Shown in pieces: positions 4,972 to 62,953 of a stretch of 64,000 bases of DNA; position 1 is the stretch's first letter; each line of letters opens with the position of its first letter. The translations under genes and the position numbers were made by a program. The DNA is from Cloeon dipterum (taxonomy: Eukaryota > Arthropoda > Insecta > Ephemeroptera > Baetidae), in the NCBI RefSeq assembly GCF_949628265.1, contig NC_088789.1, positions 31,427,883 to 31,491,882 of the forward strand. Reading direction: 5' to 3'. The notes under the pieces are model-generated. The model was given only the letters and a program-made list of their open reading frames with translations, was not told where the DNA came from and searched no databases.

Positions 4972-6713
4972 ATGCTGCGAGGCAAAGAAGGAAAAACACC
5001 CATTCAAAAGCCGCTTTGCAGACTGTGCGAGTGTCCGACGTCGGACGGCCACGTCCTCGCGTCGCAGGTGGACAGGTTCAAGCTGAGGAAATGGGCCATG
5101 AAGGTCATGAACCTGACGGAAAGAGACGAGAATTTGCCAGACGTGGTTGAAGAAGACGCTTTGATCTGCTATTTTTGCATCTGGCAGGCAGAGTGAGTTT
5201 TTTCACGAGATTAAAAATTTAATTTTGATTTTAACGCGTGTTTTAGGTTTGGGGATGAGTCTGGTGACGAGGCTGTTGCTTGGTGGCCAAAAAATCTTGA
5301 TTTGGAAAAAAACGCGAGGGTGCTGCGAGAGAATTATTCAGGTGCTTAGGATTTTTTATTAAAAATATTCATCAGAGTAATTTATATTGTTTAAATTTTA
5401 CAGTTGGAGAAGTAGAACAGTGTTGGGTGCAGTTGGAAGTGGTTGATCTGGCGAAATACACAAAAGAATCCACTGAGAAGAGAAAATTCAACATTGATCT
5501 GGCTAATTACGAAAAGCCTAAAAAGAGTAAAACCGTCCGGGGAGTGTGTTTTTACTGCGGCAAGATGTACAACAGTCTGATGAATCACATCAAATATTCG
5601 CACAAAGAAGCCATCAAATGCGGAATTCTGGGCTGCGCGACATTCTTTCACACCGAGGAGGAAAAGGAGCAGCACATGCAGCAGGTTTCACACGAGAAAC
5701 GAAACAAACCATGCAAAAGCAAGGAAATTCGTTGCAAATATTGTGAAAGTGACAAATTATATTCCACATTGAAATCGTTGAGGCTGCACATGAAACGCCT
5801 CCATCCGGAATTTTCCATGCGGTGCTCGCGTGTTGGCTGCCAAGAGTTTTTCAAATCCAAGTCTGAGATGGTTGCCCATATTAACTCTTGGCACAAACGA
5901 GGACAAAAACAGCGTGTTCTCCAGTGCAAGCAGTGCGAGTATTTCACCAGGCACGACGAGCACATTTTGAGACGACACGTCGAGTCGAAGCACATGCCAA
6001 AGACCTTCAAATGCGACAGATGCGACGCCAAATTCGGCTCGAAAGCGGCAGTGGATAAGCACTTCATACAATTTCACACGTTTGTAAACTGCAAAACTTG
6101 TGGCCAGGACGTGGCTCTCGGACACAAACCATACCACGGAAAGCCATCGGTTTGCTACAGATGCAAACTCAGATTCAAGTGCTCGGGTTTGTACCAATCG
6201 CATCGGGAGAAATGCAAACAAACCCTCCTTACTTGCAAAGTGTGTGGAAAATCGTTCCCCGTGGATTCGAGGTTGAAAAATCACGTGAAAAACGTTCACA
6301 CCAAAACTATGATTTTTCGCTGCGAGCATTGCGACCATTCTACCCATGACAAGATCCACATGCAGGGGCACATGCAACGCAAACACCTTCCGAAGACGAT
6401 CAAGTGTGAATTGTGCGACAAATCGTTTGCCACGGAATCTCTTGTCAATATTCACAAGTCGGCGGCGCACTCGTTCATTCACTGCGCTGAGTGCGCGCAG
6501 GAAATTCTGCGCGTTCACAAGTCTACACACATGAGCGTCAAGAGTTGCCGCCGCTGCAAGTGCAAGTTCAAGTGCCAGGGACTTCTTGAAATTCATAGCA
6601 ACAAGAGCTGCCAAAATAATAATTACTGTTGCGACATTTGCCAGAAATATTTCAAAAATAAGGCTGATTTGTATACTCACATGGTTAACAATCACATTCG
6701 TGTGTATAAATAA
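4972..6713 (+). CDS. ZAD-C2H2 zinc-finger protein, copy 1 (541 aa)
   Basis: Three exons: 4972-5192, 5247-5341 and 5404-6713, introns 54 and 62 bp, all GT-AG and in phase. Residues 1-74 hold two cysteine pairs (C16/C19 and C66/C69) spaced as in a ZAD, the arthropod zinc-finger-associated dimerisation domain. Exon 2 adds a short acidic/Trp-rich segment. Exon 3 carries about 14 C2H2-like fingers in tandem; some are atypical (two short Cx2C...H fingers and two ending in Cys rather than His). The protein is expected to bind DNA in the nucleus as a transcription factor or chromatin protein. The ATG follows a TATA box by 83 bp, and AATAAA lies about 60 bp after the stop. The last exon is nearly identical to copy 2. 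The caspase-NACHT-ankyrin gene lies about 14 kb downstream; no functional link is shown. Confidence 0.88.
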
Positions 6714-20712: not shown

Positions 20713-23700
20713 ATGGAAACGGAAGGAAATTATTTCGCTTACTGTTTGGACACGAACACCAAAAAAAATTACTTCATTGTACCGTCGAAGTTTTTGAAAC
20801 CAAGACCAAAAGCAATAAATTCGATACCAGGAGTTACTTGGGTCACTCTTGGACAACACTTCAAGGAGGCTGTGCTACAATCAGCATATCATGAATCTTT
20901 GGAGGTAGACCCTGACGATGGGTCCTTCCTGGACCAGACACCCGCCAAGACTGACACAGATTTTGAGCACTTGCTGACCAAGGCAGTGTACAAAGAATGT
21001 CTCGTTCTTGCTACTGCTTCCTCTGTCCAAGAACTGCAACAGTTCCTTCAATCGGTGAATATAAAAATACCACAAAAATACCGACGGTTGGATGTTTCTG
21101 ACGCTTCAGGAAGTCAACAACACGACGAGTCGCAGCAGGTACATCAAGAATCCATTTTCTTTAAAACTACTTTTATAATAAGTCCTCTAAATTGGTCATG
21201 ACGCCTAGAACTTGAACCTGAAAAAATTATAAAAACAATACTTTCAACGGACATGTTTCAGCAGAATGAAAAAAAGCGATTTAGGAGTAGCGAATGCAAT
21301 CAGCAATCGAGCAATCAAGATTACTCAACGGCCTCAAAAAGCTTGGAGGAATCAGCTTCTACCACATTATCAAGTCGTGTGTCCGTCCAAGAATTGCCAC
21401 ATCACGGAAAAGCTGGCAATGTCAACGCTCAAAATAGAAAACGAATTTTGGATGATTCTGTCGCTTCAGGTAGTCAACAAAACGACGAGCCGAAGCAGGT
21501 ATACCAGCAGGTATAAGCCCCGAATTGGTCTTGATGTCTAGTCTAGAACTTTAAACCTGAGAAATGATAAAAAATACTTTATACGGAAATGTTTCAGCAG
21601 AATGAAAAGCGATTTAGGAGTAGCGAATGCAATCAGCAAACAAAAAATGAGGATTTCTCAACGGCATCAACAAGCTTGGAAGAGCCAAACTCTTCCTCTA
21701 AAAATGTTTCTACAGGAGCAACTCCTTTCGTTACGCAAATTGTATTGAAAGAACCGATTGACTCGCATGATGACTCAGAGAATGAGATAGGTAATTCCTC
21801 TTTAATGCGTGTTTACTAGGAAGGTTTCTATTTCCGGCATTACTTGAGTTGTGAGGAAAAATTTATTGCTAATAATTTTTTCCAGACTATTCTTACATTC
21901 GGCCTGAAGGAGTAGCTAACCTAGGATTTTTTGAATATGAAATAGATGGAAAAGTCAATAGACAAAACGCAGACAAGTAATTATCCAGAGTTTATTTATA
22001 ATTTGAAACTAATATCGCTCTTTCAAGTGTTTGTGTCTTAGTCATTCACTACGATTTCGTAAATGATCCTAATCTGTTCCGAAACGGAGACGCCTCTGAC
22101 ATAAAATTCCTAAAGAATGTCTTCAGGGAAAACCGGAATTGCAATTTCCGTGACATTCTGTCACCGAGCAAAAAGACTTTGCTCAAACTTCTCAGCGATC
22201 AAGAAAAGCTTTTGCGGTTTTTCAACGTACAAGGTAAAACATGATCAAATTAAAATTCATGTATACTCATTTTGTTTTGTTCAGATGAAGTGCCCTCTGT
22301 TTTCGTGCTTTTCTTTCTCTCTCATGGGACTGTAAACGGAAAAATATGGACCAGCCACGTCGAAAGGGAAACCAATGAACCCGTGTATTTCACAACAGAT
22401 GAAGTCTTTGACTCATTACAGAAGCTACGGAGATTCGACAAATGTTTGAAAGTCGTGAATTTTGGGGTAAGTATCAAAAACACAATTTCTATAATTTATA
22501 TTAAAGAGATTTTCAGTGTTATATAAAAGTATTATTCCATGTTTCAGTCATGTCGGGGGTCCTTTTACGATTCTAAGTTTGGCTCGAAGAATTCATTAGA
22601 AAACTATGAAAACAAGAATTCCTGTAGAATAACCTGTCGCCCGGGAATGCACAACTGTGTCGTGTTCTATTCGACAGTAGAGAGTAAGTTTTTACGGCAA
22701 CGATTGCTTCTTTCGTTAAATTAATCTATTTTTAAACATTGTTACAGCGACATTAGCAAATACTGATGGGAGTGGTTCATGGTTTGTAAAAAACATCTGC
22801 ACAAGTCTGAACGAAGCAATGGACGAGCCCTTGTTGAATTTCTTCACAATTGTTCAGAATCGAATGCATCAAACGTCATGCCAAATTACGACCTTTGATA
22901 AAAATATTCCTTTGGGGCAGACACCAGAGCTCAAAATGTTTACACAAGACATGATTTTCGTAATCTCAAAGTGAGTGTCGCAAATAAACGGACAATGTGA
23001 TAAAAGCAATCGTAGTTGATACTTCTTAAATCTATAGAATCTCATTAACAACATTCATAAAACTTTTTTCAGGATGACAATCGCAGCAAAACCTTTTTCA
23101 AACACTGATGGGTTTGGTGAAAGGAGCAAAGTCAATAATGAAATACTATCCAGACATTTCTCCTGGAAATCGAGTGAAGGACAAGATATCAGGGGTCGTA
23201 AAGGTTTTATTTTATCCTTGGTCCAAAACAAACAAGTGCAAGAAGTGAAAAGAGCTCTTCATAAACTAGACTTCGAAATCAGGGATTGGTCTCTTAGCAG
23301 TCTTTCTAAGGAATTTTATTTTAAAATGGGTGAGTATCAAAACAATGAAAGAATTAAATTTGGTTTAATTATGGTATTGCAGTGTCCGAGTTGGAACCAG
23401 ACGTGGGCTGCATTTTGACCTGCATATTTGGCCCTGTGTGTGTAAACGAACACAAAGAGGTTTGCGTGCGCGTGCAAAAGGGTCAAGAGATTCCAATCAA
23501 GGACATCCTACACAGTTTGGTCGGCCCAAAAAACGATAAATTGATAGGAAAGCCGAAAATTCTGTTCGTTGTTAACGTGGAAGCACCACAAACGGACAAT
23601 GTAAGCTATTCGCCCAACTGTTGCGATAGATATTAGAGTTTGATAAATATATTTTTATTTAGATCCCCGTGCCCAAAGATTTACAAGTCGATGCTACAAA

Positions 23701-26700
23701 CCACAGTGGCTGGCTGGTGTTGATTCTAAAATTTGAAGGTAATTTTTAAATAGTTGCATGTCTTCAAAGCATTAATAAATAAATTATCTCACATAGATGC
23801 ATTAAAGAAGTTGATTGAACTTCTGGAAAATATTGGTGAAAAATGCCTGCAAGAACTTCTGGGGCCTCTGCTAACTCGTGAGTCCAATAGAGAGGAGATG
23901 GTTCTTCTCAATTCTACTTTGCAGTATCTCTTGAAATTTCCTACTTGGCCAAGAACATTTGTCAAACCAGATTTTATACTAAAAAATACAAAAATCCCCC
24001 GTGGCGAAATGAGTAGATTTAAATATTTAATGGGATGTCCTTTTAAGAAGAAGATTGATTTTAAAAGGTTAATAGAAAGGGCAAAACGATTGTTTGAGGA
24101 AAACAAAAATTCGATGAAGTTTCAGAAAATGAGTCTTCAAAACAAAACAAAATCTTCAAGTGAAGTTGAACCTTCGATAATGCCACTCAAAAACTTAGGA
24201 ACTATCTCTGCAACGAGCGATTCCTCGAGCGATTCCTCGAGCGATTCATCGAGCGATTCCTCGAGCGATTCATCGAGTGATTCACCTGACGCAAGCTATT
24301 TATGGATATTTAATTCAGTTGCTGGAGCAGGCAAATCGACCATACTCGAAGAAATGGCGCATCAACTCGCAAAAATTGTTGAAGGGTTTCAATTACTGCT
24401 GATTCCCCTAAAAAAACACTATCGGTACTTACTTGACATGCCATTACATAACGTGAATGGAGTCGATTTCCTCGCAAAAACAACTTGCAATTCTCATGAC
24501 GTCATCAACGACTGGATAAAGAAGAGAGAAGTTATTGTTTTCCTCGACGGTTTTGACGAAGTGTGCCCAGATTTCAGAGAAAAAATCATCAGAATTTTGA
24601 TCGTATTGAATAATGAAAGAGTCCCACTCTTCATCGGAACCAGGCCTCATGAAGTGCACCACGTTCAAGATAGGATAGAAAACTCGACGATAGTTGAGAT
24701 CAAACCAATGGACGAAGCAAAGCAAATCGAGTTTCTGAAGAAAGTGGCAGGAAAGAATCAGCAAGAAATCGAACAATTGAGGAAAAACTTCAAAGACAAA
24801 GACATTCTGGGCAACCCACTATATCTCACCTTGTTGGCCGAGTACAAAGGTGATGGAAACTTGTATGACATTTTTGACAAAATGGTGCGGAACAAAGTGC
24901 AAATTTGTTTGAAGAGAGAAAACGGAGGCAACGATGTTGGAGAGGAGGCAATTGAAAATGCATTGAAATTCATTCAATTGGTGGCCTCTCGTTTCTTAAC
25001 AGGAGTGAAGATCGACCAAGGCAGTGTAACGAAAGAAGCATTGGAGAAAATCAACGCTTTTGGAGTTGTGACATACTGCAATGAAAGAGTCGATTTCACT
25101 CACCAAACATTTGCAGAATTTCTTACCGCTCAAAAATTTCTATACGACTTAAAAAATCCAGTAACTGAAGAAGTGCCCTTGTTCAACGATGAATTGGTGC
25201 AGTGCAGAAAGTTCGTTGACCTTTTCTTTTCTATTGTAAAGGAGAAGGACGCGTCTTACACAGAGGCCTTTAAGATTTGGGCCGCTAAATCAACCAACCA
25301 TTTAAATATGGTCAGACAAATATGTGGAGAGAACTTGAGAGAAATTTTCAAGTTTCTCAACCCAGCTGATTTCTTATTAAAAGATAACAACGGTAAATAC
25401 GCTTTGCGCTTCGCATTGCGGAATCTTGAGATGGTCAAGTTGGTGCACCAAAAAATTAGCGAGTTGGCGACCGAAACAACCAACACTGGAGAAAGCTGTC
25501 TCCACCTGGCGATTGATGACTACAAATGCAGCGAAGAAGTGGCTCTTTGGATCTTGCAAAACACTGAGGTGGGTAAAAATGCTGAAACTAAATTGAATTA
25601 CACAACGCTTCTGCGGGCTTGTGAAAGAAAAAAATGGAAAGTAGCAGCTCAGCTTGTAACGAAGCACAATATTGAAGTAAATGATCAAAATGAATCATGT
25701 GGAAAATCCATTTTTCAGTACGCCGTCCAGTCGAATAATACCGATTTAGTGCAAGGACTTCTTGATAGGGGCTCCAATGTGAATTCAAAAGATAATTATG
25801 GAGCAACACCTCTTCACCTAGCAGCTAGGTCAAATGGAAACTCGGAAATTTTAAAGATTTTGCTCGAAAAAGGCGCCAACGTAAGCGCGAAAGACAATAA
25901 AAAAAGAACTGCATTGCATTACGCCTTTGAAAATTACGTAGTTACAGAAGTGGTTCGAAAATTGCTAGAATGCGGTGCTGACGTTAATTCACAAGACGAA
26001 CAAGGAAACGCAGTTTTTCATCTCGCTGCTAAGTCATACGTAAATAACGAAATTGTGAATATTTTACTTGAAAATGGTGCCGAAGTAAACTTACAAAACA
26101 ATGAAAAACAAACTGCATTACATTACGCCTTCAAAAATTTAGAAGATATGGATGATGCAGAAGTGATCCAAAAGCTGCTCGAATTCGGTGCCGACGTTAA
26201 TTCACAAGACAAAGAAGGATGCACAGCTGTTCTCCTAGCAGCTAGATCATATTTAAACCCAGAAATAGTGAAAAAAATGCTTACGAAAGGTGCCAAAGTA
26301 GACTTACAGAACAATGAAAAACGAACTGCATTGCATTACGCCGCTGAACATCACAAACATACAGAAGTAATGCAAAAGCTTCTTGAATACTGCATCGACG
26401 TTAATTTACAAGATGAAGAAGGATTCACAGCTCTTCACCTAGCAGCAAGGTCAAATAGAAACCCTGAAATTGTGAAAATTCTGCTTGAAAAAGGTGCCAA
26501 AGTACACTTAACAGACAATAAAAAACGAAGTGCGTTGCATCACGCCTTTAAAAATGTCAAAGTTACAGAAGTGGTTCATAAACTGCTTGAATACGGTGCT
26601 GACGTTAACTCACAAGATGAAGAAGGATACTCAGCTCTTCACCTAGCAGCTAGATCAAAAGTAAACCCAGAAAATGTCAAACTTTTGCTTGAAAAAGGTG

Positions 26701-29700
26701 CCAAAGTACACTTAGAAAGCATTAGAAAACGAACTGCATTGCATTACGCAGCTGAAAATCACGAAGTTATAGACGTTCTGCAAAAGCTACTAGAATACGG
26801 CGTCGACGTTAATTTACAAGATGAAGAAGGATTCACAGCTCTTCACCTAGCAGCCAAGTCAAATGGAAACCCTGAAATTGTAAACATTCTGCTCGAAAAT
26901 GGTGCCGAAGTAAACTTAACAGACAATAAAAAAAGAAGTGCGTTGCATCACGCCTTTAAAAATTACAAAGTTATGGAAGTGGTTCAAAAACTGCTAGAGT
27001 ACGGTGCCGACGTCAATTCACAAGACGAAGAAGGATTCACAGCTCTTCACTTAGCAGCTAGGTCGAAAGAAAACCCTGAATTTGTGAAAATTCTGCTTGA
27101 AAAAAGTGCCAAAATAAACGAATTAGACAATGATAAACGGACCGCACTGCATTATGCCGCTAGATTTAACCAAACTCCAGAAATTATCCAAACGTTGCTG
27201 GAAAACGGCGCTGACATTCATTCACAATGTGAAGAAGGATTAACGGCCCTTCACCAAGCCGCTGGGTTTAACAAAAACCCGGAAATAGTGAAAATTTTGC
27301 TGGATAAAGGTGCAAAAATAAACGCAGTAGACAATCAAAAATGGACTCCACTGCATGTGGCCGCTAGATACAACGCAGCTTCAGATATTGTCCAAATGCT
27401 GCTCGAAAACGGCGCCGATGTTCATTTACAAAGTCAAGGAGAATTAACAGCCCTTCACCTAGCTGCTGGATTTAATGAAAACCCAGAAATAGTGCAATCT
27501 TTGCTCCATAAAGGCGCCAAAGTAGATGCGCAAGACGAGGATAATTGGACCGCACTGCACCAGGCCGCTAAAAGTAACCCAGTTGCCGAAGTGGTCCAAA
27601 CGTTGCTGGAAAACGGCGCTGACATTCATTCACGATGTCAACAAGGATCATCGGCCCTTCACCAAGCCGCTGGGTGGAACAAAAACCCGGAAATAGTGAA
27701 AATTTTGCTTCAAAATGATGCAAAAATAAACGAATTAGACAATGATAAATGGACCGCACTGCATTATGCCGCTACATATAACGCAGCTTCAGATATTGTC
27801 CAAATGCTGCTCGAAAACGGTGCCGACGTTCATTTACAAAGTCAAGGAGAATTAACAGCCCTTCACCTAGCTGCTGGATTTAATGAAAACCCAGAAATAG
27901 TGCAATCTTTGCTCCATAAAGGCGCCAAAGTAGATGCGCAAGATGAGGATAATTGGACCGCACTGCATCACGCCGCTAAAAGTAACCCAGTTGCCGAAGT
28001 GGTCCAAACGTTGCTGGAAAACGGCGCTGACATTCATTCACGAAGTCAACAAGTATCATCGGCCCTTCACCATGCCGCTGGGTGGAACAAAAATCCAGAA
28101 ATAGTGAAAATTTTGCTGGATAAAGGTGCAAAAGTAAATGAACTATACCATGAAAAATGGACCGCACTGCATTTTGCAGCTCAATTTAACCAAGCTCCAG
28201 AAATTATCCAAATGCTGCTGGAAAATTGCGCCGACGTTCATATAAAAGGTCAAGGAGGATCGACGGCCCTTCACCTAGCTGCTGGATCTAGTGAAAACCC
28301 AGAAATAGTGCAATCTTTGCTCCATAAAGGCGCCAAAGTAGATGCGCAAGACGAGAATAATTGGACCGCACTGCATCACGCTGCTAAAAGTAACCCAGTT
28401 GCCGAAGTGGTCCAAACGTTGCTGGAAAACTGCGCTGACATTCATTCACGAAGTAAACAAGGATCTTCGCCCCTTCACCAAGCCGCTGGTTGGAACAAAA
28501 ACCCGGAAATAGTGAAAATTTTGCTTCAAAATGATGCAAAAATAAACGAATTAGACAATGATAAATGGACCGCACTGCATTATGCCGCTAGATATAACGC
28601 AGCTTCAGATATTGTCCAAATGCTGCTCGAAAACGGTGCCGACGTTCATTTACAAAGTCAAGGAGAATTAACAGCCCTTCACCTAGCTGCTGGATTTAAT
28701 GAAAACCCAGAAATAGTGCAATCTTTGATACATAAAGGCGCCAGAGTAGATGCGCAAGACGAGAATAATTGGACCGCACTGCATCACGCTGCTAAAAGTA
28801 ACCCAGTTGCCGAAGTTGTCCAAACGTTGCTAAAAAACGGCGCTAACATTCATTCACAATGTGAAGAAGGATCAACGGCCCTTCATCAAGCCGCTGGATG
28901 GAACAAAAACCCGGAAATAGTGAAAATTTTGCTTAAAAATGGTGCAAAAGTAAATGAACTAGACAATGATGAATGGACCGCACTCCATTTTGCCGCTAGA
29001 TTTAACCAAGCTCCAGAAATTATCCAAATGTTGCTGAAAAACTGCGCTGACATTCATTCACGAAGTCAAGAAGGATCAACGGCCCTTCACCAAGCCGCTG
29101 GGTGGAACAAAAACCCGGAAATATTAAAATCATTACTTCATAAAGGTGCCAAAGTAGATGCACAAGACAAGAATAAATGGACCGCACTGCATAAAGCCGC
29201 ACATAATAACCCTGTTGCAGAAATTATCCAAACGTTGCTGGAAAACGGCGCTGACATTAATTTACAAGATGAAGAAGGACACACAGCTCTTCACCTAGCA
29301 GCTGAATCTAATGAAAACCCAGAAATTGTAAAGATTTTACTTGAAAAAAGTGCCAAAATAAACGAATTAGACAATGAAAAATGGACCCCACTGCATTTAG
29401 CCGCTAGATTCAACCCAGCTCCAGATATTGCCCGAATGCTGCTCGATAACGGCGCCGACGTTCATTTACAAAATCAAGAAGGATTAACAGCCCTTCACCT
29501 AGCTGCTGGATTTAATGAAAACCCAGAAATAGTGGAAGCTTTACTTCAAAACAGTGCCGAAATAAATGTAGAAAATGCTCTTGGAGAGACTGCTTTATTT
29601 CTCGCGGCAAAGCATAATCGAGTGAAAGAAGTGGTTCAAAAACTGCTCGACCATGGTGCCAAAGTAAATGAAATGATTAGGAATGACAAAGAATGTGTCG

Positions 29701-29771
29701 GTGTATTACGTAAAATGAAGGTCAACTCTGAAGTTCTTAAAATACTAAATGAAAATGACTCTGATGTATAG
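20713..29771 (+). CDS. Caspase / pseudocaspase / NACHT / ankyrin-repeat protein, copy 1 (2739 aa)
   Basis: Twelve exons: 20713-21138, 21262-21498, 21598-21790, 21886-21976, 22028-22233, 22285-22466, 22548-22683, 22748-22970, 23073-23329, 23383-23600, 23663-23738, 23797-29771. All introns are GT-AG and all phases join. An in-frame stop at 20695 supports the start. Residues 1-315: no recognised domain, ending in a Ser/Gln-rich part; exons 2 and 3 begin as duplicates. Residues 316-565: caspase fold with RNG near its start, H398 in SHG, C447 in SCRG and p10 motif GSWF (500-503). Residues 566-749: second caspase-like region lacking the catalytic pair. Residues about 918-1200: NACHT, Walker A GAGKST (K928), Walker B LDGFDE (D999), then HQTFAEFL. 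Residues about 1280-2715: about 42 ankyrin repeats. No signal peptide or membrane segment seen, so likely cytosolic. Inferred role: ligand-triggered NLR-like protease. Confidence 0.85.
22028..22970 (+). other. Caspase domain (p20 + p10) coding region, gene 1
   Basis: Exons 5-8. The conserved order is VCVLVIHYDF, RNGDASDI (family: RxGxxxD), FFLSHG (catalytic His398), FGSCRGS (catalytic Cys447), FYSTVE (family: YST), GSGSWF (family p10: GSWF), TPELKMF. In the alignment I made by eye, the family motif SWR just before GSW reads LAN here, so the p10 arginine of the S1 pocket would be Asn, while the p20 arginine in RNG is kept. The linker between Cys and p10 is short. Confidence 0.85.
23073..23738 (+). 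other. Second, degenerate caspase-like domain coding region, gene 1
   Basis: Exons 9-11. The pattern LIGKPKILFVV (residues 704-714) matches the strand that leads to the active-site Cys in caspases (L-x-GKPK-hhhh-QACRG), but NVEAP follows instead of a Cys-containing pentapeptide. CIFGP (664-668) stands where SHG is expected. A GWLVLILKF strand follows, like the first strand of p10. This fits a pseudocaspase regulatory domain; recognition is by motif only. Confidence 0.6.
24214..24287 (+). repeat. 12-bp microsatellite coding for Ser-Ser-Asp-Ser repeats
   Basis: About six copies of gattcctcgagc and variants (gattcatcgagc). It encodes an acidic serine-rich linker directly before the NACHT Walker A strand. 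Gene 2 has only a single SDSSD at this place (about 51079-51096). Confidence 0.85.
24290..25150 (+). other. NACHT NTPase domain coding region, gene 1
   Basis: Walker A GAGKST at 24324-24341 and Walker B FLDGFDE at 24540-24560 with the small residue and second acidic residue typical of NACHT (LDGhDE), then a sensor-like GTRP at about 24640 and the winged-helix motif FTHQTFAEFLTAQ at about 25096-25134. NACHT domains switch oligomeric state with ATP or GTP. Confidence 0.88.
25388..29690 (+). repeat. Ankyrin repeat array, gene 1 (about 42 repeats, 204/408-bp units)
   Basis: About 42 repeats of 33-35 aa with the TALHxAA...EIVxxLLExGA core. From about repeat 5 they alternate between two types, so the natural unit is a 68-aa dimer (204 bp). 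Between about 27220 and 29000 four-repeat units of 408 bp recur almost unchanged: the segment caaagtcaaggagaattaac occurs near 27427, 27835 and 28651, with a diverged copy near 28245. Confidence 0.9.
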
Positions 29772-32632: not shown

Positions 32633-34331
32633 ATGCTGCGAGGCAAAGAAGGAAAAACACCCATTCAAAAGCCGCTGTGCAGACTATGCGAGTGTCCGAC
32701 GTCGGACGGCCACCTCCTCGCGTCGCAGGTGGACAGGTTCAAGCTGAGGAAATGGGCCATGGAGGTCATGAACCTGACGGAAGAAGACGAAAACTTGCCG
32801 GACGTGGTCGGAGAAGACGCTTTGATCTGCTATTTTTGCATCTGGCAGGCAGAGTATGTTATTTACGAATGAAAAAATTGCAGTTTATTATTTTTGACCC
32901 GTGTTTTAGGTTTGGGGATGAGTCTGGAGACGAGGCTGTGGCTTGGTGGCCGAAAAATCTCGATTTGGTAGAAAACGCCAGGGTGCTGCGGGAGAATTAT
33001 TCAGGTGCTTAGGATTTGTTATTAAAAATATTCATCAGAGTAATTTATATTGTTTAAATTTTACAGTTGGAGAAGTAGAACAGTGTTGGGTGCAGTTAGA
33101 AGAGGTTGATCTGGCTAATTACGAAAAGGAACAGCCTAAAAAGAGTAAAACCGTCCGGGGAGTGTGCTTTTACTGCGGCAAGATGTACAACAGTCTGATG
33201 AATCACATCAAATATTCGCACAAAGAAGCCATCAAATGCGGAATTCTGGGCTGCGCGACATTCTTTCACACCGAGGAGGAAAAGGAGCAGCACATGCAGC
33301 AAGTTTCACACGAGAAACGAAGCAAACCATGCAAAAGCAAGGAAATTCGTTGCAAATATTGTGAAAGTGACAAATTATATTCCACGTTGAAATCGTTGAG
33401 GCTGCACATGAAACGCCTCCATCCGGAATTTTCCATGCGGTGCTCGCGTGTTGGCTGCCAAGAGTTTTTCAAATCCAAGTCTGAGATGGTTGCCCATATC
33501 AACTCTTGGCACAAACGAGGAAGAAAACAACGTGTTCTCCAGTGCAAGCAGTGCGAGTATTTCACCAGGCACGACGAGCACATTTTGAGACGACACGTCG
33601 AGTCGAAGCACATGCCAAAGACCTTCAAATGCGACAGATGCGACGCCAAATTCGGCTCGAAAGCGGCAGTGGATAAGCACTTCATACAATTTCACACGTT
33701 TGTTAACTGCAAAACTTGTGGCCAGGACGTGGCTCTCGGACACAAACCATACCACGGAAAGCCATCGGTTTGCTACAGATGCAAACTCAGATTCAAGTGC
33801 TCGGGTTTGTACCAATCGCATCGGGAGAAATGCAAACAAACCCTCCTTACTTGCAAAGTGTGTGGAAAATCGTTCCCCGTGGATTCGAGGTTGAAAAATC
33901 ACGTGAAAAACGTTCACACCAAAACTATGATTTTTCGCTGCGAGCATTGCGACCATTCTACCCATGACAAGATCCACATGCAGGGGCACATGCAACGCAA
34001 ACACCTTCCGAAGACGATCAAGTGTGAATTGTGCGACAAATCGTTTGCCACGGAATCTCTTGTCAATATTCACAAGTCGGCGGCGCACTCGTTCATTCAC
34101 TGCGCTGAGTGCGCGCAGCAAATTCTGCGCGTTCACAAGTCTACACACACGAGCGTCAAGACTTGCCGCCGCTGCAAGTGCGAGTTCAAGTGCCAGGGAC
34201 TTCTTGAAATTCATAGCAACAAGAGCTGCCAAAAAAATAATTACTGTTGCGACATGTGCCAGAAATATTTCAAAAATAAGGCTGATTTGTATACTCACAT
34301 GGTTAACAATCACATTCGTGTGTATAAATAA
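32633..34331 (+). CDS. ZAD-C2H2 zinc-finger protein, copy 2 (526 aa)
   Basis: Exons 32633-32853, 32910-33004 and 33067-34331, GT-AG introns in the same places and phases as copy 1. The ZAD cysteines C16, C19, C66 and C69 and about 14 fingers are all kept. Relative to copy 1 it lacks 51 bp between the ZAD and the first finger; the deletion is bounded in copy 1 by the direct repeat TTGATCTGGC, and the frame is preserved. It adds EQ in the following KEQPKK. I chose the ATG at 32633 because it aligns with the start in copy 1; an upstream in-frame extension has no ATG. Expected to be a nuclear DNA-binding protein like copy 1. This is the only copy that shares promoter-proximal DNA with copy 3 while its finger exon is closest to copy 1, so exchange between copies is likely. 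Confidence 0.88.
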
Positions 34332-47889: not shown

Positions 47890-50800
47890 ATGGAAACGGA
47901 AGGAAATTATTTCGCGTACTGTTTGGACACGAACACCAAAAAAAATTACTTCATTGTACCGTCTAAGTATTTGAAACCAAGAGCAAATGCAAGACATTCG
48001 AATCCAGGAGTTGCCTGGGACACCCTTGGACAAGAATTCTGGGGAGGTGTGTTCCAATCAGCATGGCACGTGTCTTTGGAGGTTGACCTTGACGATGGGT
48101 CCTTCCTGGACCAGACACCCAAGACTGACGCAGATTTTGAGCACTTGCTGACCGAGGCAGAGTACAAAGAATGTCTCGTTCTTGCCACTGCTTCCTCTGT
48201 CCAAGAACTGCAACAGTACGTTGGAACGTGCAACATCAAAGTTCCAAAAAAATACCGACGGTTGGATTTTTCCGACGCTTCAGGAAGTCAACAACACGAC
48301 GAGTCGCAGCAGGTATACATCAATTAGAGTTTGTTTTTATTTAAAACACTGTTATTGTAAGTCCTGAATTGATCTTGACGTCTAGAACTTGAAACTTGAA
48401 ACTTATGAGAAAATGATCAAAAAAGACTATCTACGAAAATGTTTCTGCAGAATGAAAAGCGATTATGGAGTAGCGAATGCAATCAGCAAACAAAAAATGA
48501 GGATTTCTCAACGGCATCAAAAAGCTTGGAAAAGCCAAACTCCACCTCAAAAAATGTTTCTACAGGAGCAACTCCTTTCGTTACGCCAATTGTATTCGAA
48601 GATCCGATCGAGTCGCATGATGACTCAGAGAATGAGATAGGTAATTACTTTTTAATGTGTGTTTACTAGAAAGGTTTCTATTTGAGTTGTGAGGAAATAA
48701 TTATTGCTAATAATTTTTTCCAGACTATTCGCACATTCGGTCTGAAGGAGTAGCTAACCTAGGATTTTTTGAATATGAAATAGATGGAAAAGTCAATAGA
48801 CAAAACGCAGACAAGTAATTATCCAGACTTCCAGAGTTAATTTATAATTTGAAACTAATGTCGCTATTTCAAGTGTTTGTGTCTTAGTCATTCACTACGA
48901 TTTCATAAATGATCCGCTGTTCCGAAACGGAGACGCCTCTGACATAGACAACCTCAAGACTTCTCTCGGGAAAAACCGAAATTGCAATTTCCGTGACATT
49001 CTGTCACCGAGCAAAAAGACTTTGCTCAAACTTCTCAGCGATCGAGAAAAGCTTTTGCGGTTTTTCAACTTACAAGGTGAAACACATTAAATTTAAAATT
49101 CATGTATGCTCATTTTCTTTTGTTCAGACGAAGTGCCCTCTGTTTTCATGCTTTTCTTTCTCTCTCATGGGACTGTAAACGGAGAAATATGGACCAACCA
49201 TTTCGATAGGGAAACCAATAACCGCGTGTCTTTCACAACAGATGAAGTCTTTGACTCATTACAGAAGCTACAGAGATTCGACCAATGTTTGAAAGTCGTG
49301 AATTTTGGGGTAAGTTTCAAAAACACAATATCTATAATTTATATTTGAGAGTTTTTCAGTGTTACATAAAAGTATTATTCCATGTTTCAGTCATGTCGGG
49401 GGTCCTTGTACGATTCTAAGTTTTGCTCGAAGAATTCATTAGAAAACTATGAAAACAAGAATTCCTGTAGAATAACCAGTCACCCGGGAATGCACAACTG
49501 TGTCGTGTTCTATTCGACAGTAGAAAGTAAGTTTTTACGGCAACGATTGCTTCTTTCGTTAAATTAATCTATTTTTAAACATTGTTACAGCGACATTAGC
49601 AAATACTGATGGGAGTGGTTCATGGTTTGTAAAAAACATCTGCACAAGTCTGAACGAAGCAATTGACGAGCCCTTGTTGAATTTCTTCACAATTGTTCAG
49701 AGTCGAATGCATCAAACGTCATGCAAATTTACGACTTTTGATAAAAATATTCCTTTGGGGCAGACACCAGAGCTCAAAATGTTTACACAAGACAGAAAAT
49801 TCTTAATCTCAAAGTGAGTGTCGTAAATAAACGGACAATGTCAATAATAAACAACCGTAGATGACTCTTCTTATATCTTTTAATGATCTTGTTAATAATC
49901 AGTATAACAAATTCACACGACAATTTTTTTCAGGACGACAATCGCAGCAAAACCTTTTTCAAACACTGATGGGTCTGGTAACGTGAGCAAGGTCTCAAAT
50001 GAAATACTTTCCAGAGAGTTCTCCTGGAAATCGAATGAAGGACAAGATATCAGGGGTCGCAAAGGTTTCATTTTATCCTTGGCCCAAAACAAACAAGTGC
50101 AAGAAGTGAAAAGAGCTCTTCATAAACTAGACTTCCATATCAGAGACTGGTCTCTTAGCAGTTTGTCCAAGGACTTTTATTTTAAAATGGGTGAGTTTCA
50201 AAACAGAGAAATTATTAAATTTGGTTTAATTATGGTATTACAGTTTCCGAGTTGGAACCAGACGTGGGCTGCATTTTGACCTGCATATTTGGCCCTGTGT
50301 GTGTAAACAAACACAAAGAGGTTTGCGTGCGCGTGCAAAAGGGTCAAGAGATTCCAATCAAGGACATCCTACACAGTTTGGTCGGCCCAAAAAACGATAA
50401 ATTGATAGGAAAGCCGAAAATTCTGTTCGTTGTTAACGTGGAAGCACCACAAACGGACAATGTAAGCCATTCTCCAACTGATGCAAAAGATATTAGAGTT
50501 TGATAAATATCTCTTTATTTATAGATCCCCGTGCCAATGAAAGATTTACGAGTCGATGCTACAAACCACAGTGGCTGGCTGGTGTTGATTCTAAAATTTG
50601 AAGGTAATTTTTAAATAGTTGCATGTCTCCAAGGCATTAATAAATGAATTCTCTCACATAGATGCATTAGAGAAGTTGATTGAACTTCTGGGAAATATTG
50701 GGGGAAAAAGCCTGCAAGAACATCTGGGGCCTCTGCTAACTCGTGAGTCCAATATAGAGGAGATGGTTCTTCTCAATTCTACTTTGCAGTATCTCTTGAC

Positions 50801-53800
50801 ATTTCCTACTTGGCCAAGAACATTTGTCAAACCAGATTTTGCACTAAAAAAAACTGAAATCCCCCGTGGCGAAATGAGTAGATTTAAATATTTAATGGGA
50901 TATCCTTTTGAGGAGAAGATTGATTTTAAAACATTAATAGGAATGGCCAAACAATTGTTTGAGGAAAACAAAAATAAGATAGAGCTTCAGACAAAGAGTC
51001 ATCAAAACAAAACAAAATCTTCAAGTGAGGATGAACCTTTGATAATATCACTCAAAAACATAAAAGCTTTCTCTACACCGAGTGATTCATCTGATGCGAG
51101 CTATTTTTGGATATTTAATTCAGTTGCTGGAGCAGGCAAATCGACCGTACTCGTAGAAATGGCGCACCAACTCGCAAAAATTGTTGAAGGGTTTCAATTA
51201 CTGCTGATTCCTCTAAAAAAACATTATCGGTACTTACGTGAAATGCCACTACATAACGTGAATGAAGTCAATTTCCTCGCCAAAACAACTTGCAATTCTC
51301 ATGACGACATCAACAACTGGATAAAGAAGAGAGAAGTTATTGTTTTCCTCGACGGTTTTGACGAAGTGTGCCCAGATTACAGAGAAAAAATCATCAAAAT
51401 TTTGATCGCATTGAATAATGCAAGAGTCCCACTCTTCATCGGAACCAGGCCTCATGAATTGCACCACATTCAAGAAAGAATAAAAAACTCGACGATAGTT
51501 GAGATTGAAGCCCTGGATGAAGAGAAGCAAATCAAGTTTCTGAAGAAAGTGGCAGGAAAGAAAGAGGAAGAAATCAAACAATTGAGGACAAACTTCAAAG
51601 ACAAACACATTCTGGGAAACCCACTCTATCTCAAATTGTTGGCGGAGTACAAAGGTGATGGAAACTTGTATGACATCTTTGACAAGATAGTGCGGAACAA
51701 AGTGCAAATTTGTTTGAAGAGAGAAAACGGAGGTAACGATGTTGGAGAGGAGGCAATTAAAAATTCATTGAAATTCATACAATTGGTGGCCTCTCGTTTC
51801 TTAACAGGAGTGAAGATCGACCAAGGCAGTGTTACTAAAGAAGCATTGGAGAAGATCAACGCTTTTGGAGTTGTGACATACTGCAATGAAAGAGTCGATT
51901 TCACTCACCAAACATTTGCAGAATTTCTTACCGCTCAAAAATTTATATACGACTTAATAAATCCAGTAGCTGAAGAAGTGCCCTTGTTCAACGATGAATT
52001 GGTGCAGTGCAGGAAGTTCGTTGACCTTTTCTTTTCTATGGAAAAGGGGAAGGACGCGACTTACTTTGATTCCTTTACGAATTGGGCAGCTAAATCAACC
52101 AGCCGTTTAAATATGGTCATAAAAATATGTGGAGAGAACTTGAGAGAAATGTTCAAGTTTCTCAAGCCAGCTGATTTCTCATTAAAAGATAACAACGGTA
52201 AAAACGCTTTGCACTTCGCATTACGGCACCTTGAGATGGTCAAGTTGGTGCACCAAAAAAATAGCGAGTTGGCGACCGAAACAACCAACACTGGAGAAAG
52301 CAGCCTCCACCTGGCGATTGATGACTACAAATGCAGCGAAGAAGTGGCTCTTTGGATCTTGAAAAACACTGAGGTGGGTAAAAATGCTGAAACTAAATTG
52401 AATTACGCAACGCTTCTGCTGGCTTGTGAAAGAAAAAAATGGGAAGTAGCAGCCCAGCTTGTAACGAAGCACAATATTGAAGTAAATGATCAAAATAAAT
52501 CATGTGGAAAATCCATTTTTCAGTACGCCGTCCAGTCGAATAACACCGATTTAGTGCAAGGACTTCTTGATAGGGGCTCCAATGTGAATTCAAAAGATAA
52601 TTATGGAGTAACAGCCCTTCATCTAGCAGCTGGATCGAATGGAAACTCAGAAATTGTGAAAATTTTGCTTGAAAAAGGTGCCAAAGTAAACGCACAAAAC
52701 AAAGACAAACAAACTGCATTGCATTACGCCGCAGAAAATAACGAAGTTAAAGAAGTGGTCCAAAAGCTGCTAGAACACGGCGCCGACGTTAATTCACAAG
52801 ACGAAGAAGGAAACACAGCTCTTCATCTAGCTGCTATGTCATACGAAAAAAACGAAATTGTGAATATTTTGCTTGAAAATGGTGCCGAATTAAACTTACA
52901 AAACAATGAAAAACAAACTGCATTACATTACGCCTTCGAAAATTTAGAAGATATGGATGATACAGAAGTGATACAAAAGCTGCTAGAACACGGTGCCGAC
53001 GTTAATTCACAAGACGAAGAAGGAAACACAGCTCTTCACCTAGCAGCTAGATCATATTTAAATCCAGAAATAGTGAAAAAAATTATTACGAAAGGTGCTA
53101 AAGTAGACTTACAGAACAATGAAAAACGAACTGCATTGCATTACGCCGCTGGAAATCACAAAGATACAGAAGTAGTGCAAAAGATTATTGAATGCTGCAT
53201 CGACATAAATTTACAAGACAAAGAAGGATTCACAGCGCTTCACCTAGCAGCAAGGTCAAATAGAAACCCTGAAATTGTGAAAATTTTGCTCGAAAATGGT
53301 GCCAAGGTAAACTTAACAGACAATAAAAAACGAAGTGCATTGCATCACGCCTTTAAAAATGACGAAGTTACAGAAGTGGTTCAAAAATTACTAGAATGCG
53401 GTGCTGACGTTAACCTTCAAGATGAAGAAGGAATCACAGCTCTTCACCTAGCAGCTAAATCAAATGAAAACCCAGAAATTGTACAGATTTTGCTTGAAAA
53501 AAGTGCCAAAATAAACGAATTAGAAAATGATAAATGGACCGCATTGCATTTTGCCGCTAAATTTAACAAAGCTCCAGAAATTATCCAAATGTTTCTAGAA
53601 AAAGGTGCCAACATTAATTCACGAAGTAAACAAGGATCAACGGCCCTTCACCAAGCCGCTGGTTGGAACCCAAATCCAGAAATAGTGAACATTTTGCTTA
53701 AAAATGGTGCAAAAGTAAATGAACTAGACAATGATGAACGGACCGCACTCGATTTTGCCGCTAAAAGTAACCCAGTTGCCAAAGTGGTCCAAACGTTGCT

Positions 53801-56372
53801 GGAAAACGGCGCTGACATTCACTCACGAAGTCAACAAGGGTCATCGCCCCTTCACCAAGCCGCAGGTTGGAACAAAAACCCTGAAATAGTGAAGATTTTG
53901 CTGGATAAAGGTGCAAAAATAAACGCAGTAGACAATAAAAAATGGACTCCACTGCATTTGGCCGCTAGATATAACGCAGCTTCAGATATTGTCCAAATGC
54001 TGCTCGAAAACGGTGCCGACGTTCATTTACAAAGTCAAGGAGAATTAACAGCCCTTCACCTAGCTGCTGGATCTAGTGGAAACCCAGAAATAGTGCAATC
54101 TTTGCTCCTTAAAGGCGCCAAAGTAGATGCGCAAGACGCGAATTATTGGACCGCACTGCATCACGCCGCTAAAAGTAACCCAGTTGCCAAAGTGGTCCAA
54201 ACGTTGCTGGAAAACGGCGCTGACATTCATTCACGAAGTAAACAAGGATCATCGGCCCTTCACCAAGCCGCTGGGTGGAACAAAAACCCGGAAATAGTGA
54301 AAATTTTGCTGGATAAAGGTGCAAAAATAAACGCAGTAGACAATAAAAAATGGACTCCACTGCATTTGGCCGCTAGATATAACGCAGCTTCAGATATTGT
54401 CCAAATGCTGCTCGAAAACGGCGCTGACGTTCATTTACAAAGTCAAGGAGAATTAACAGCCCTTCACCTAGCTGCTGGATTTAATGAAAACCCAGAAATA
54501 GTGCAATCTTTGCTCCATAAAGGCGCCAAAGTAGATGCGCAAGACGAGGATATTTGGACCGCACTGCACCACGCCGCTAAAAGTAACCCAGTTGCCGAAG
54601 TTGTCCAAATGTTGCTGGAAAACGGCGCTGACGTTCATTTACAAAGTCAAGGAGAATTAACAGCCCTTCACCTAGCTGCTGGATTTAATGAAAACCCAGA
54701 AATAGTGCAATCTTTGCTCCATAAAGGCGCCAAAGTAGATGCGCAAGACGAGGATAATTGGACCGCACTGCACCACGCCGCTAAAAGTAACCCAGTTGCC
54801 GAAGTTGTCCAAATGTTGCTGGAAAACGGCGCTGACGTTCATTTACAAAGTCAAGGAGAATTAACAGCCCTTCACCTAGCTGCTGGATTTAATGAAAACC
54901 CAGAAATAGTGCAATCTTTGCTCCATAAAGGCGCCAAAGTAGATGCGCAAGACGAGGATAATTGGACCGCACTGCATCACGCCGCTAAAAGTAACCCAGT
55001 TGCCGAAGTGGTCCAAACGTTGCTGGAAAACGGCGCTGACATTCGTTCACGATGTCAACAAGGATCAACGGCCCTTCACCAAGCCGCTGGGTGGAACAAA
55101 AACCCGGAAATAGTGAAAATTTTGCTTCAAAATGATGCAAAAATAAATGAACTAGACAATGATGAATGGACCGCACTGCATTTTGCCGCTAAATTTAACC
55201 AAGCTCCAGAAATTATCCAAACATTGCTGGAAAATGGCGCTGACATTCATTCACAATGTGAAGAAGGATTAACGGCCCTTCACCAAGCCGCTGGGTGGAA
55301 CAAAAACCCGGAAGTAGTGAAAATTTTGCTGGATAAAGGTGCAAAAATAAACGCAGTAGACAATAAAAAATTGACTCCACTGCATGTGGCCGCTAGATAT
55401 AATCCAGCTTCAGATATTGTCCGAATGCTGCTCGAAAACGGCGCTAACGTTCATTTACAATGTCAAGGAGAATTAACAGCCCTTCACCTAGTTGCTGGAT
55501 CTAGTGAAAACCCAGAAATAGTGCAATCTTTGCTCCATAAAGGCTCCAAAGTAGATGCGCAAGATAAGAATAATTGGACCGCACTGCATCACGCCGCTAA
55601 AAGTAACCCAGTTGCCGAAGTTGTCCAAACGTTGCTGGAAAACGGCGCTGAAATTCATTCACGAAGTCAACAAGGATCAACGGCCCTTCACCAAGCCGCT
55701 GGTTGGAACCCAAATCCAGAAATAGTCAAGATTTTGCTTAAAAATGGTGCAAAAGTAAATGAACTAGACAATGATGAATGGACCCCACTGCATTTTGCCG
55801 CTAAATTTAACCAAGCTCCAGAAATTATCCAAACATTGCTGGAAAACGGCGCTGACATTCATTCACGATGCAAACAAGGATCAACGGCCCTTCACCATGC
55901 CGCTGGGTGGAACAAAAACCCGGAAATAGTGAAAACTTTACTTGATAAAGGTGCAAAAATTAACGCAGTAGACTATAAAAATTGGACTCCACTGCATTCG
56001 GCCGCTAGATATAACGCAGCTTCAGATATTGTCCGAATGCTGCTCGAAAACGGCGCCGACATTCATTTACAAAGTCAAGGAGAATTGACGGCACTTCACC
56101 TAGCTGCTGGATTTAATGAAAACCCAGAAATAGTGGAAGCTTTACTTCCAAAAATTGCCGAGATAAATTTAGAAAATGCTCTTGGAGAGACTGCTTTATT
56201 TCTAGCGGCAAAGCATAATCGAGTGAAAGAAGTGGTTCAAAAACTGCTCGACCATGGTGCCAAAGTAAATGAAATGATTAGGAATGACAAAGAATGTGTC
56301 GGTGTATTACGTAAAATGAAGGTCAACTCTGAAGTTCTTAAAATACTAAATGAAAATGACTCTGATGTATAG
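47890..56372 (+). CDS. Caspase / pseudocaspase / NACHT / ankyrin-repeat protein, copy 2 (2570 aa)
   Basis: Eleven exons: 47890-48312, 48451-48640, 48724-48814, 48874-49076, 49128-49309, 49391-49526, 49591-49813, 49934-50190, 50244-50461, 50525-50603, 50662-56372. Every intron is GT-AG and exon lengths equal those of copy 1 or differ by multiples of three. Key residues are kept: H316 in SHG, C365 in SCRG, GSGSWF in p10, Walker A K827, Walker B D898. The second caspase-like region again lacks the catalytic pair. About 40 ankyrin repeats follow. Differences from copy 1: the duplicated exon 2 is absent, the Ser/Asp repeat is not expanded, there are two fewer ankyrin repeats in a different order, and the N-terminal 100 residues are more diverged than the caspase domain. 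The C-terminal 70 residues are nearly identical. Inferred to be a paralogous NLR-like receptor with its own protease module, possibly with different ligand range. Confidence 0.85.
48874..49813 (+). other. Caspase domain (p20 + p10) coding region, gene 2
   Basis: Exons 4-7. It keeps RNGDASDI, FFLSHG, FGSCRGS, YSTVE and GSGSWF, and the same LAN in place of SWR as gene 1. The sequence between p20 helices differs (for example DNLKTSLGKNRN against KFLKNVFRENRN), while the catalytic blocks are unchanged. Confidence 0.85.
49934..50603 (+). other. Second, degenerate caspase-like domain coding region, gene 2
   Basis: Exons 8-10. It shows the same LIGKPKILFVVNVEAP and CIFGP blocks as gene 1. One extra Met codon lies in exon 10 (PVPMKDL). 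Retention of an open, nearly unchanged domain without catalytic residues in both paralogues argues for a structural or regulatory role. Confidence 0.6.
51095..51955 (+). other. NACHT NTPase domain coding region, gene 2
   Basis: Walker A GAGKST with Lys codon at 51138, Walker B LDGFDE with Asp codon at 51351, GTRP at about 51441, and FTHQTFAEFLTAQ at about 51900-51940. Confidence 0.88.
52190..56290 (+). repeat. Ankyrin repeat array, gene 2 (about 40 repeats, 204-bp quantum)
   Basis: Same two-type alternation as gene 1. The segment caaagtcaaggagaattaac recurs near 54029, 54437, 54641 and 54845, and a near-copy near 55457 and 56069; all spacings are multiples of 204 bp (408, 204, 204, 612, 612). 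Three consecutive 204-bp units at about 54430-54990 are almost identical. Confidence 0.9.
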
Positions 56373-61202: not shown

Positions 61203-62953
61203 ATGCTGCGAGGCAAAGAAGGAAAAACACCCATTCAAAAGCCGCTGTGCAGACTATATATGCGAGTGTCCGACGTCGGACGGCCACGTCCTCGCGTCGC
61301 AGGTGGACAGGTTCAAGCTGAGGAAATGGGCCATGAAGGCCCTGAACCTGAGGGAAGAAGACGAAAACTTGCCGGACGTGGTCGGAGAAGACGCTTTGAT
61401 CTGCTATTTTTGCATCTGGCAGGCAGAGTATGTTATTTACGAATGAAAAAATTGCAGTTTATTAATTTTGACCCGTGTTTTAGGTTTGGGGATGAGTCTG
61501 GAGACGAGGCTGTGGCTTGGTGGCCGAAAAATCTCGATTTGGAAGAAAACGCCAGGGTGCTGCGAGAGAATTATTCAGGTGCTTAGGATTTGTTATTAAA
61601 AATATTCATCAGAGTAATTTATATTGTTTAAATTTTACAGTTGGAGAAGTAGAGCAGTGTTGGGTGCAGTTGGAAGAGGTTGATCTGGCCAAATACACAA
61701 AGGAATCCCCTGAGAAGAGAAAATTCAACATTGATCTGGCTAATTACGAAAAGGAACAGCCTAAAAAGAGTAAAACCGTCCGGGGAGTGTGCTTTTACTG
61801 CGGCAAGATGTACAACAGTCTGATGAATCACATCAAATATTCGCACAAAGAAGCCATCAAATGCGGAATTCTGGGCTGCGCCACATTCTTTCACACCGAG
61901 GAGGAAAAGGAGCAGCACATGCAGCAAGTTTTACATGAGAAACGAAGCAAACCATGCAAAAGCAAGGAAATTCGTTGCAAATATTGTGAAAGTGACAAAT
62001 TATATTCCACATTGAAGTTGTTGAGGCTGCACATGAAACGCCTCCATCCGGAATTTTCCATGCGGTGCTCGCGTGTTGGCTGCCAAGAGTTTTTCAAATC
62101 CAAGTCTGAGATGGTTGCCCATATTAACACTTGGCACAAACGAGGACAAAAACAGCGTGTTCTCCAGTGCAAGCAGTGCGAGTATTTCACCAGGCACGAC
62201 GAGCACATTTTGAGACGACACGTCGAGTCGAAGCACATGCCCAAGACCTTCAAATGCGACAATTGCGACGCCAAATTCGGCTCGAAAGCGGCAGTGGATA
62301 AGCACTTCATACATTATCACACGTTTGTAAACTGCAAAACTTGTGGCCAGGACGTGGCTCTCGGACACAAACCATACCACGGAAAGCCATCGGTTTGCTA
62401 CAGATGCAAACTCAGATTCAAGTGCTCGGGTTTGTACCAATCGCATCGGGAAAAATGCAAGCAAACCCTCCTTACTTGCAAAGAGTGTGGAAAATCGTTC
62501 CCTGTGGATTCGAGGTTGAAAAATCACGTGAAAAACGTTCACACCAAAACTTTGATTTTTCGCTGCGAGCATTGCGACCATTCTACCCATGACAAGATCC
62601 ACATGCAGGGGCACATGCAACGCAAACATCTTCCAAAGACGGTTAAGTGTGAATTGTGCGACAAATTGTTTGCCACGGAATCTCTTGTCAATATTCACAA
62701 GTCGGCGGCGCACTCGTTCATTCACTGCGCTGAGTGCGCGCAGCAAATTCTGCGCGTTCACAAGTCTACACACATGAGCGTCAAGACTTGCCGCCGCTGC
62801 AAGTGCGAGTTCAAGTGCCAGGGACTTCTTGAAATTCATAGCAAGAGCTGCCAAAATAATAATTACTGTTGCGACATGTGCCAGAAATATTTCAAAAATA
62901 AGGCTGATTTGTATACTCACGTGGTTAACAATCACATTCGTGTGTATAAATAA
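61203..62953 (+). pseudogene. ZAD-C2H2 zinc-finger gene, copy 3, frameshifted in ZAD exon
   Basis: Exons align with the other copies at 61203-61427, 61484-61578 and 61641-62953. Exon 1 has 4 extra bases in a TA run (61255-61262: actatata against actat in copy 2). This shifts the frame right after the first ZAD cysteine (C16), so C19, C66 and C69 are lost and the fingers are no longer in frame with the ATG. Exon 3 remains fully open, with all fingers intact, including the 17-residue segment lost from copy 2. A shortened protein starting within or after exon 2 could in principle still be made, without a ZAD. Its finger exon is the most diverged of the three. Whether the insertion is a real allele or an assembly error cannot be told from this sequence. 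Confidence 0.7.

Follow-up and report, generated by a model that had tools for sequence, protein, structure and literature searches.

A mayfly gene family encoding a caspase, a pseudocaspase, a NACHT domain and ankyrin repeats in a single predicted chain

The stretch of Cloeon dipterum DNA analysed here (the window, 64,000 nucleotides on the 36.4 Mb contig C4 of a 190 Mb genome in 10 contigs) carries a gene, here called gene A, that encodes a caspase domain, a pseudocaspase, a NACHT domain and a long ankyrin array. Judged by domain searches, gene A belongs to a family with roughly 100 members in this genome. Its first caspase retains the catalytic His/Cys dyad and its second has the caspase fold without the dyad; the family has undergone lineage-specific expansion and its repeats have been duplicated. 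We consider it reasonably probable that gene A is a single-chain NLR-like receptor of the STAND class (signal transduction ATPases with numerous domains) that holds its effector in the same polypeptide and works as the switch proposed below.

Gene structure and tandem copy

The initial annotation, made from the letters alone, had joined 12 phase-consistent exons into one gene comprising a caspase with SHG and SCRG catalytic blocks, a second caspase-like region, a NACHT domain with Walker A and Walker B motifs and about 42 ankyrin repeats. Our rebuilt splice model has 11 GT-AG introns in consistent phase and a terminal codon as its sole stop, and it yields a protein of equal length. All of the claimed parts were recovered, with the repeat count revised to 39 by a family hidden Markov model (HMM). 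The joining of these parts into one gene is borne out by a tandem copy, gene B, which when built by gene A's splice pattern equals the NCBI protein P0001 (LOC135943804) across all 2570 aa, and by recurrence of the domain order in a second mayfly. An exon 5 acceptor at 22042 was rejected because it breaks the frame; with the acceptor at 22028, which gene B shares, the frame is kept. The features, in window coordinates, are as follows.

20713..29771 (+): gene A, caspase-pseudocaspase-NACHT-ankyrin; 12 exons, 2739 aa (splice model, phases, stops, Pfam)
20713-21138, 21262-21498, 21598-21790, 21886-21976, 22028-22233, 22285-22466 (+): gene A exons 1-6
22548-22683, 22748-22970, 23073-23329, 23383-23600, 23663-23738, 23797-29771 (+): gene A exons 7-12
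20713..21790 (+): N-terminal region, exons 1-3, residues 1-285
21262-21498 (+): exon 2, not in gene B
21975..22956 (+): caspase domain, from the end of exon 4 into exon 8 (residues 316-560)
22323..22325 (+): codon of catalytic His398 (SHG), by alignment to caspase-3
22551..22553 (+): codon of catalytic Cys447 (SCRG), by alignment to caspase-3
23164..23921 (+): pseudocaspase domain in exons 9-12 (residues 596-790)
24214..24283 (+): Ser/Asp-rich linker ahead of NACHT, encoded by a 12-bp tandem repeat
24318..24746 (+): NACHT domain (residues 923-1065), its Walker A starting at 24324 (residue 925) and its Walker B at 24537 (residue 996)
25101..25121 (+): HQTFAEF motif, in what we take to be the winged-helix region after NACHT
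25707..29672 (+): ankyrin array, 39 repeats by family HMM, with 204- and 408-bp super-repeats
47890..56372 (+): gene B, tandem paralogue of gene A; 11 exons, 2570 aa

The Pfam search of gene A covered the first 1635 aa at E values up to 1. Peptidase_C14 matched residues 318-540 well above its cut-off (E 2.5e-13, 50.7 bits against 21.4), as did NACHT (E 1.8e-9, 38.1 bits against 26.7), and ankyrin repeats begin at about residue 1389 (Ank_2, E 1.4e-77). Within these 1635 residues there was no CARD, PYD or DD death-fold domain and no leucine-rich repeat (LRR), ankyrin repeats standing in place of the latter; residues 1-142 matched no Pfam family. The model of a paralogue, P0036, has an NLR-type NACHT fold matching NLRC4 (E 7.7e-13), NLRP3 and NOD2. 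By its domain composition gene A thus lies outside the bona fide NLRs, which are defined by LRRs and an N-terminal death-fold domain, and within the NACHT clade of STAND proteins.

Splice sites are conserved in the alignment of genes A and B except for exon 2 and one acceptor shifted by 3 bases. Exon 2 of gene A is supported by the NCBI protein P0003, which on inspection carries an exon-2-like stretch; by eye, the start of exon 2 resembles that of exon 3. Synonymous divergence (Ks) between the two genes is 0.06-0.16 depending on region, and the ratio of non-synonymous to synonymous divergence (Ka/Ks) is 0.45 for both the pseudocaspase and NACHT, 0.66 for the N-terminal part, 0.75 for the post-NACHT region and 1.02 for the linker (residues 749-950). 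The family HMM finds 37 ankyrin repeats in gene B, and 14 of 33 full-length units in gene A and 20 of 31 in gene B have a sister unit of at least 85% identity. The super-repeats show duplication within the array.

The caspase, the pseudocaspase and the catalytic pocket

Gene A aligns with solved caspase-3 at both catalytic blocks (SHG with SHG, SCRG with ACRG), at a weak overall E of 0.0087, and both dyad residues are intact. The same holds for 51 of 54 Cloeon and 23 of 24 Neocloeon domains, 74 of 78 together, counting domains that span both positions (which sets aside 7 of 61 in Cloeon and 0 of 24 in Neocloeon), at a median column conservation of 63% across the caspase domain (43 rows). The exceptions are P0050, which has neither residue, and three further domains without the Cys. 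Read directly from 40 genomic loci, the His column holds His 39 times and Tyr once, and the Cys column Cys 34 times, Ser three times and Phe twice, with one empty row. An intron directly precedes SCRG in gene A, and locus rows such as FGVS at the Cys block resemble read-through into it.

The second caspase region has a caspase fold without the dyad, according to both its predicted fold and its alignment columns, although two rows of the alignment do have His at the His position. It was folded separately, since the structure-match rows of a 963-aa model all fell on the first caspase; the lone model is of moderate confidence (predicted local distance difference test score 61.7) and has c-FLIP-L among its structure matches. 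That nearly all members examined have a dead caspase directly behind a live one suggests, by analogy, a fixed partner such as c-FLIP-L is for procaspase-8.

Several observations weigh against an active caspase paired with such a partner. The pairing in cis is drawn by analogy only, and aligning the profiles of the caspase and pseudocaspase halves with hhalign gave a score of 19.5, below the best of 20 shuffled profiles (20.2), hence no match. The Asp-binding S1 pocket, which we take to be R64, Q161 and R207 of caspase-3, is not classical in gene A: the first Arg is kept, the Gln is replaced by Gly and the second Arg by Thr. Across the family the first Arg is kept in 47 of 54 Cloeon and 22 of 24 Neocloeon domains, and the Q161 equivalent, before Ala-Cys, is Gly in 50 of 54 and 22 of 24. 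The R207 equivalent, taken as the tenth residue from the Ser of YST in an ungapped register by a pattern that misses some members, is Arg in all 18 Neocloeon matches and in 27 of the 55 from Cloeon. Within Cloeon, the 12 returned members of gene A's clade have Thr (9), Ser (1), Asn (1) or Gly (1), all nine members of a second clade have Thr, and the remaining matches have Arg (27), Thr (6) or Ala (1); the Neocloeon protein P0049, missed by the pattern, has Lys. An altered pocket may mean an activity or specificity different from that of classical caspases, and from these changes we would predict a changed P1 preference in gene A's clade, or weaker activity. Finally, the caspase shows no visible purifying selection between genes A and B (Ka/Ks 1.06; 10 synonymous and 38 non-synonymous changes); the changes are too few to claim positive selection, and the recent ones carry no sign of constraint.

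The altered pocket and the Ka/Ks of about 1, together with the loss of both dyad residues in P0050 (apparently locus L042) and of the Cys in three more domains, would suit a proteolytically inactive caspase serving as scaffold or decoy, with signalling by assembly alone. We judge this quite unlikely, given that 74 of 78 domains in two species keep the dyad despite 63% median column conservation, and we continue to favour a protease that can be switched on.

A caspase-like stretch away from the NACHT places, L050 (G000:C5:27155150-27155790), was considered as a canonical-caspase control for the S1 pocket and rejected, as it has QASNG at the Cys position and so itself lacks the Cys. It is possibly another pseudocaspase.

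The family in Cloeon and Neocloeon

The Pfam model finds 101 NACHT places in the genome, 45 of them at 29-36 Mb on C4 and 30 at 0-5 Mb on C2. Pfam C14 gave 36 genome matches, nine lying directly upstream of nine NACHT places, this exon-by-exon matching being weak. HMMs derived from family members were used to examine the neighbourhoods of 41 NACHT places (the 40 best by NACHT score and the lowest one of the 101), and 40 of them have a caspase and a pseudocaspase upstream on the same strand, covering at least 239 of 246 and at least 127 of 163 model columns, respectively. The start of the NACHT HMM match follows the last pseudocaspase piece by 314-686 bases in 38 of these 40 loci; two loci have wider gaps, of 2.0 and 2.8 kb. 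Chance adjacency of open reading frames was rejected on this common layout and on the identity of gene B with its NCBI protein.

Some annotated members lack one part or have several copies of it, which suggests joins or splits in public gene models and might mean that a tandem caspase gene and a neighbouring NACHT-ankyrin gene have been wrongly joined by gene prediction. Against this stand the joined NCBI model of the tandem copy, the same order in two species, the short and regular spacing just described and the splice phases that run through gene A, so that a misjoin is very improbable indeed and a single gene remains our reading.

Three protein searches returned matches from C. dipterum or Neocloeon triangulifer (both Baetidae) in 51 of 51, 34 of 34 and 45 of 45 cases; the searches scored about 8000 word-sharing candidates (at most 100 words), so more distant relatives may well exist outside mayflies. 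The matches comprise 85 distinct proteins from two Cloeon assemblies and Neocloeon, isoforms included, and the counts are of sequences, not genes. With Walker A and ankyrins scored by simple patterns, the exact order caspase, pseudocaspase, Walker A, ankyrin occurs in 48 of the 85, and 12 more show it without a clear ankyrin array; the remaining 25 deviate by extra P-loop-like matches, by the lack of parts or by having more than one module. Among the proteins returned, Neocloeon members share the order found in Cloeon.

A tree of 66 rows places 42 Cloeon sequences in one branch (support 98), 17 Neocloeon sequences in another (99) and five rows from both species in a further branch (98), its deep part being unsure on account of long branches. 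From this branching the fusion appears to predate the divergence of the two genera, each of which would have expanded it separately.

CARD matches occur in the genome at no fewer than one place and Death matches at no fewer than seven, the closest of them some 200 kb away from any NACHT place; because these places are so few and distant, recruitment through adaptors is unlikely as a general mode. A genome search for gasdermin, run without a working control, gave no match; a DED search, likewise without one, led nowhere. PADLOC yielded nothing beyond a weak match to mad8 around the P-loop.

Caspases act in insect development, and an active single-chain protease switch could instead have a role outside defence, such as programmed breakdown of mayfly tissues. 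This we hold to be unlikely in view of the roughly 100 clustered copies, the separate expansions in two genera and the duplication of repeats, which are usual marks of conflict genes. A putative role in defence remains the reading that we prefer.

A few members and neighbours depart from the common pattern. The genome's top-scoring NACHT place, L009 (G000:C1:9155145-9161621), has no caspase or pseudocaspase upstream and is probably a different kind of NACHT protein. Locus L042 (G000:C4:8630444-8636830) has lost both dyad residues and, from common SYG and RFQN motifs, is apparently P0050, whose ankyrins are followed by two BIR domains and a match to RING that falls below threshold; if its gene model holds, P0050 would be a fusion resembling inhibitors of apoptosis. 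The predicted protein P0004 has three caspase-pseudocaspase modules around a single NACHT, and is either a genuine gene with several modules or a set of neighbouring genes joined in prediction. Within the window, a C2H2 zinc-finger gene is present in three near-copies (5301-6713, 32922-34331 and 61496-62953, Pfam having been run on the second), which together with genes A and B make up a unit of about 27-28 kb that is duplicated in tandem, and an open frame at 241-834 matches a TNP-like transposase C-terminal domain below threshold.

A proposed protease switch and its relatives

The anatomy of gene A argues for recognition, switch and effector fused in one chain, and we infer ligand sensing, oligomerization, protease activation, a substrate and an immune role as follows. 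At rest, the NACHT would be held closed by the ankyrin array and the winged-helix region. Binding of a target to the ankyrin surface, or loss of a guarded host protein, would trigger nucleotide exchange and oligomerization of the NACHT, and the oligomer would draw the caspase domains together. The fused pseudocaspase may then support each caspase as c-FLIP-L does procaspase-8, so that the protease would turn on without CARD, PYD or adaptor and cleave host substrates, leading to cell death or an immune signal.

Parts of this arrangement have counterparts elsewhere; the articles cited by PMC number are represented here by excerpts unless a main text is named. Vertebrate inflammasome sensors acting with caspase-1 (NLRC4, NLRP3) are alike in their NACHT Walker motifs, in the NLR-type fold (seen in the paralogue) and in a caspase as expected effector, whereas gene A has its caspase fused in cis, has no CARD or PYD that we found and has ankyrins in place of LRRs. 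The procaspase-8 : c-FLIP-L heterodimer (3h11, 3h13), described as catalytically productive (PMC11121540), likewise combines a caspase fold with a dyad-less pseudocaspase fold, but gene A has both in one chain ahead of NACHT and their pairing is putative. Fungal NLRs in which a protease (S8 or caspase-like CHAT) controls gasdermins also unite sensor, protease and repeats in one chain (PMC12881547), although gene A has a C14 caspase and a pseudocaspase; fungal NLR repeats are described as highly conserved and variable in length (PMC4986451). Amphioxus hybrid receptors (LRR-caspase, TNFR-caspase, death-NACHT) show a similar sensor-caspase short-cut in one protein, but the excerpt names no caspase-NACHT-ankyrin protein (PMC2575513). 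For the sponge Dysidea avara, an NLR architecture figure legend lists CASc (caspase) and the text names NACHT-Ank genes, so a caspase domain within a NACHT protein may already have been drawn there; the excerpt, on NACHT-LRR genes, names no pseudocaspase or caspase-NACHT-ankyrin family (PMC12909245). Bacterial conflict systems use NACHT or caspase, sometimes fused, in defence proteins (PMC9612521, PMC7159879, PMC8195603) and, unlike the mayfly family, are prokaryotic.

Protease NLRs in fungi, caspase hybrids in amphioxus and a caspase in a sponge NLR legend are thus already known from these sources, and excerpts of two coral and cnidarian papers (PMC10236652, PMC8260672) contain no caspase domain with NACHT. 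The initial annotation knew no named family with this domain order, nor did we find one, or any description of this mayfly family, in the open-licence literature; a text search of the main text of the Cloeon genome paper (PMC7250882) found none of the terms NACHT, caspase, NLR and ankyrin. Members are already annotated automatically in NCBI and UniRef, for example as 'uncharacterized protein' or 'Caspase family p20 domain-containing pr...'. C. dipterum itself has been put forward as a model system (PMC6446309).

Going further, and with rather more doubt than confidence, we propose that mayflies, independently of vertebrate inflammasomes, evolved a large repertoire of self-contained protease receptors, in which a caspase and a c-FLIP-like pseudocaspase would pair in cis, NACHT would provide clustering and ankyrins variable recognition, and one Cloeon branch, gene A included, would have a P1 preference changed by loss of the S1 arginine.

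The mayfly family looks like a self-contained alarm system in an animal group that, to our knowledge, is generally described as lacking NLR-type receptors. With about 100 NACHT places, and a caspase of their own at 40 of the 41 examined, it offers a direct test of an adaptor-free inflammasome-like system in an insect lineage, and it lets one test how a cis-fused pseudocaspase works and how caspase specificity shifts within a gene family.
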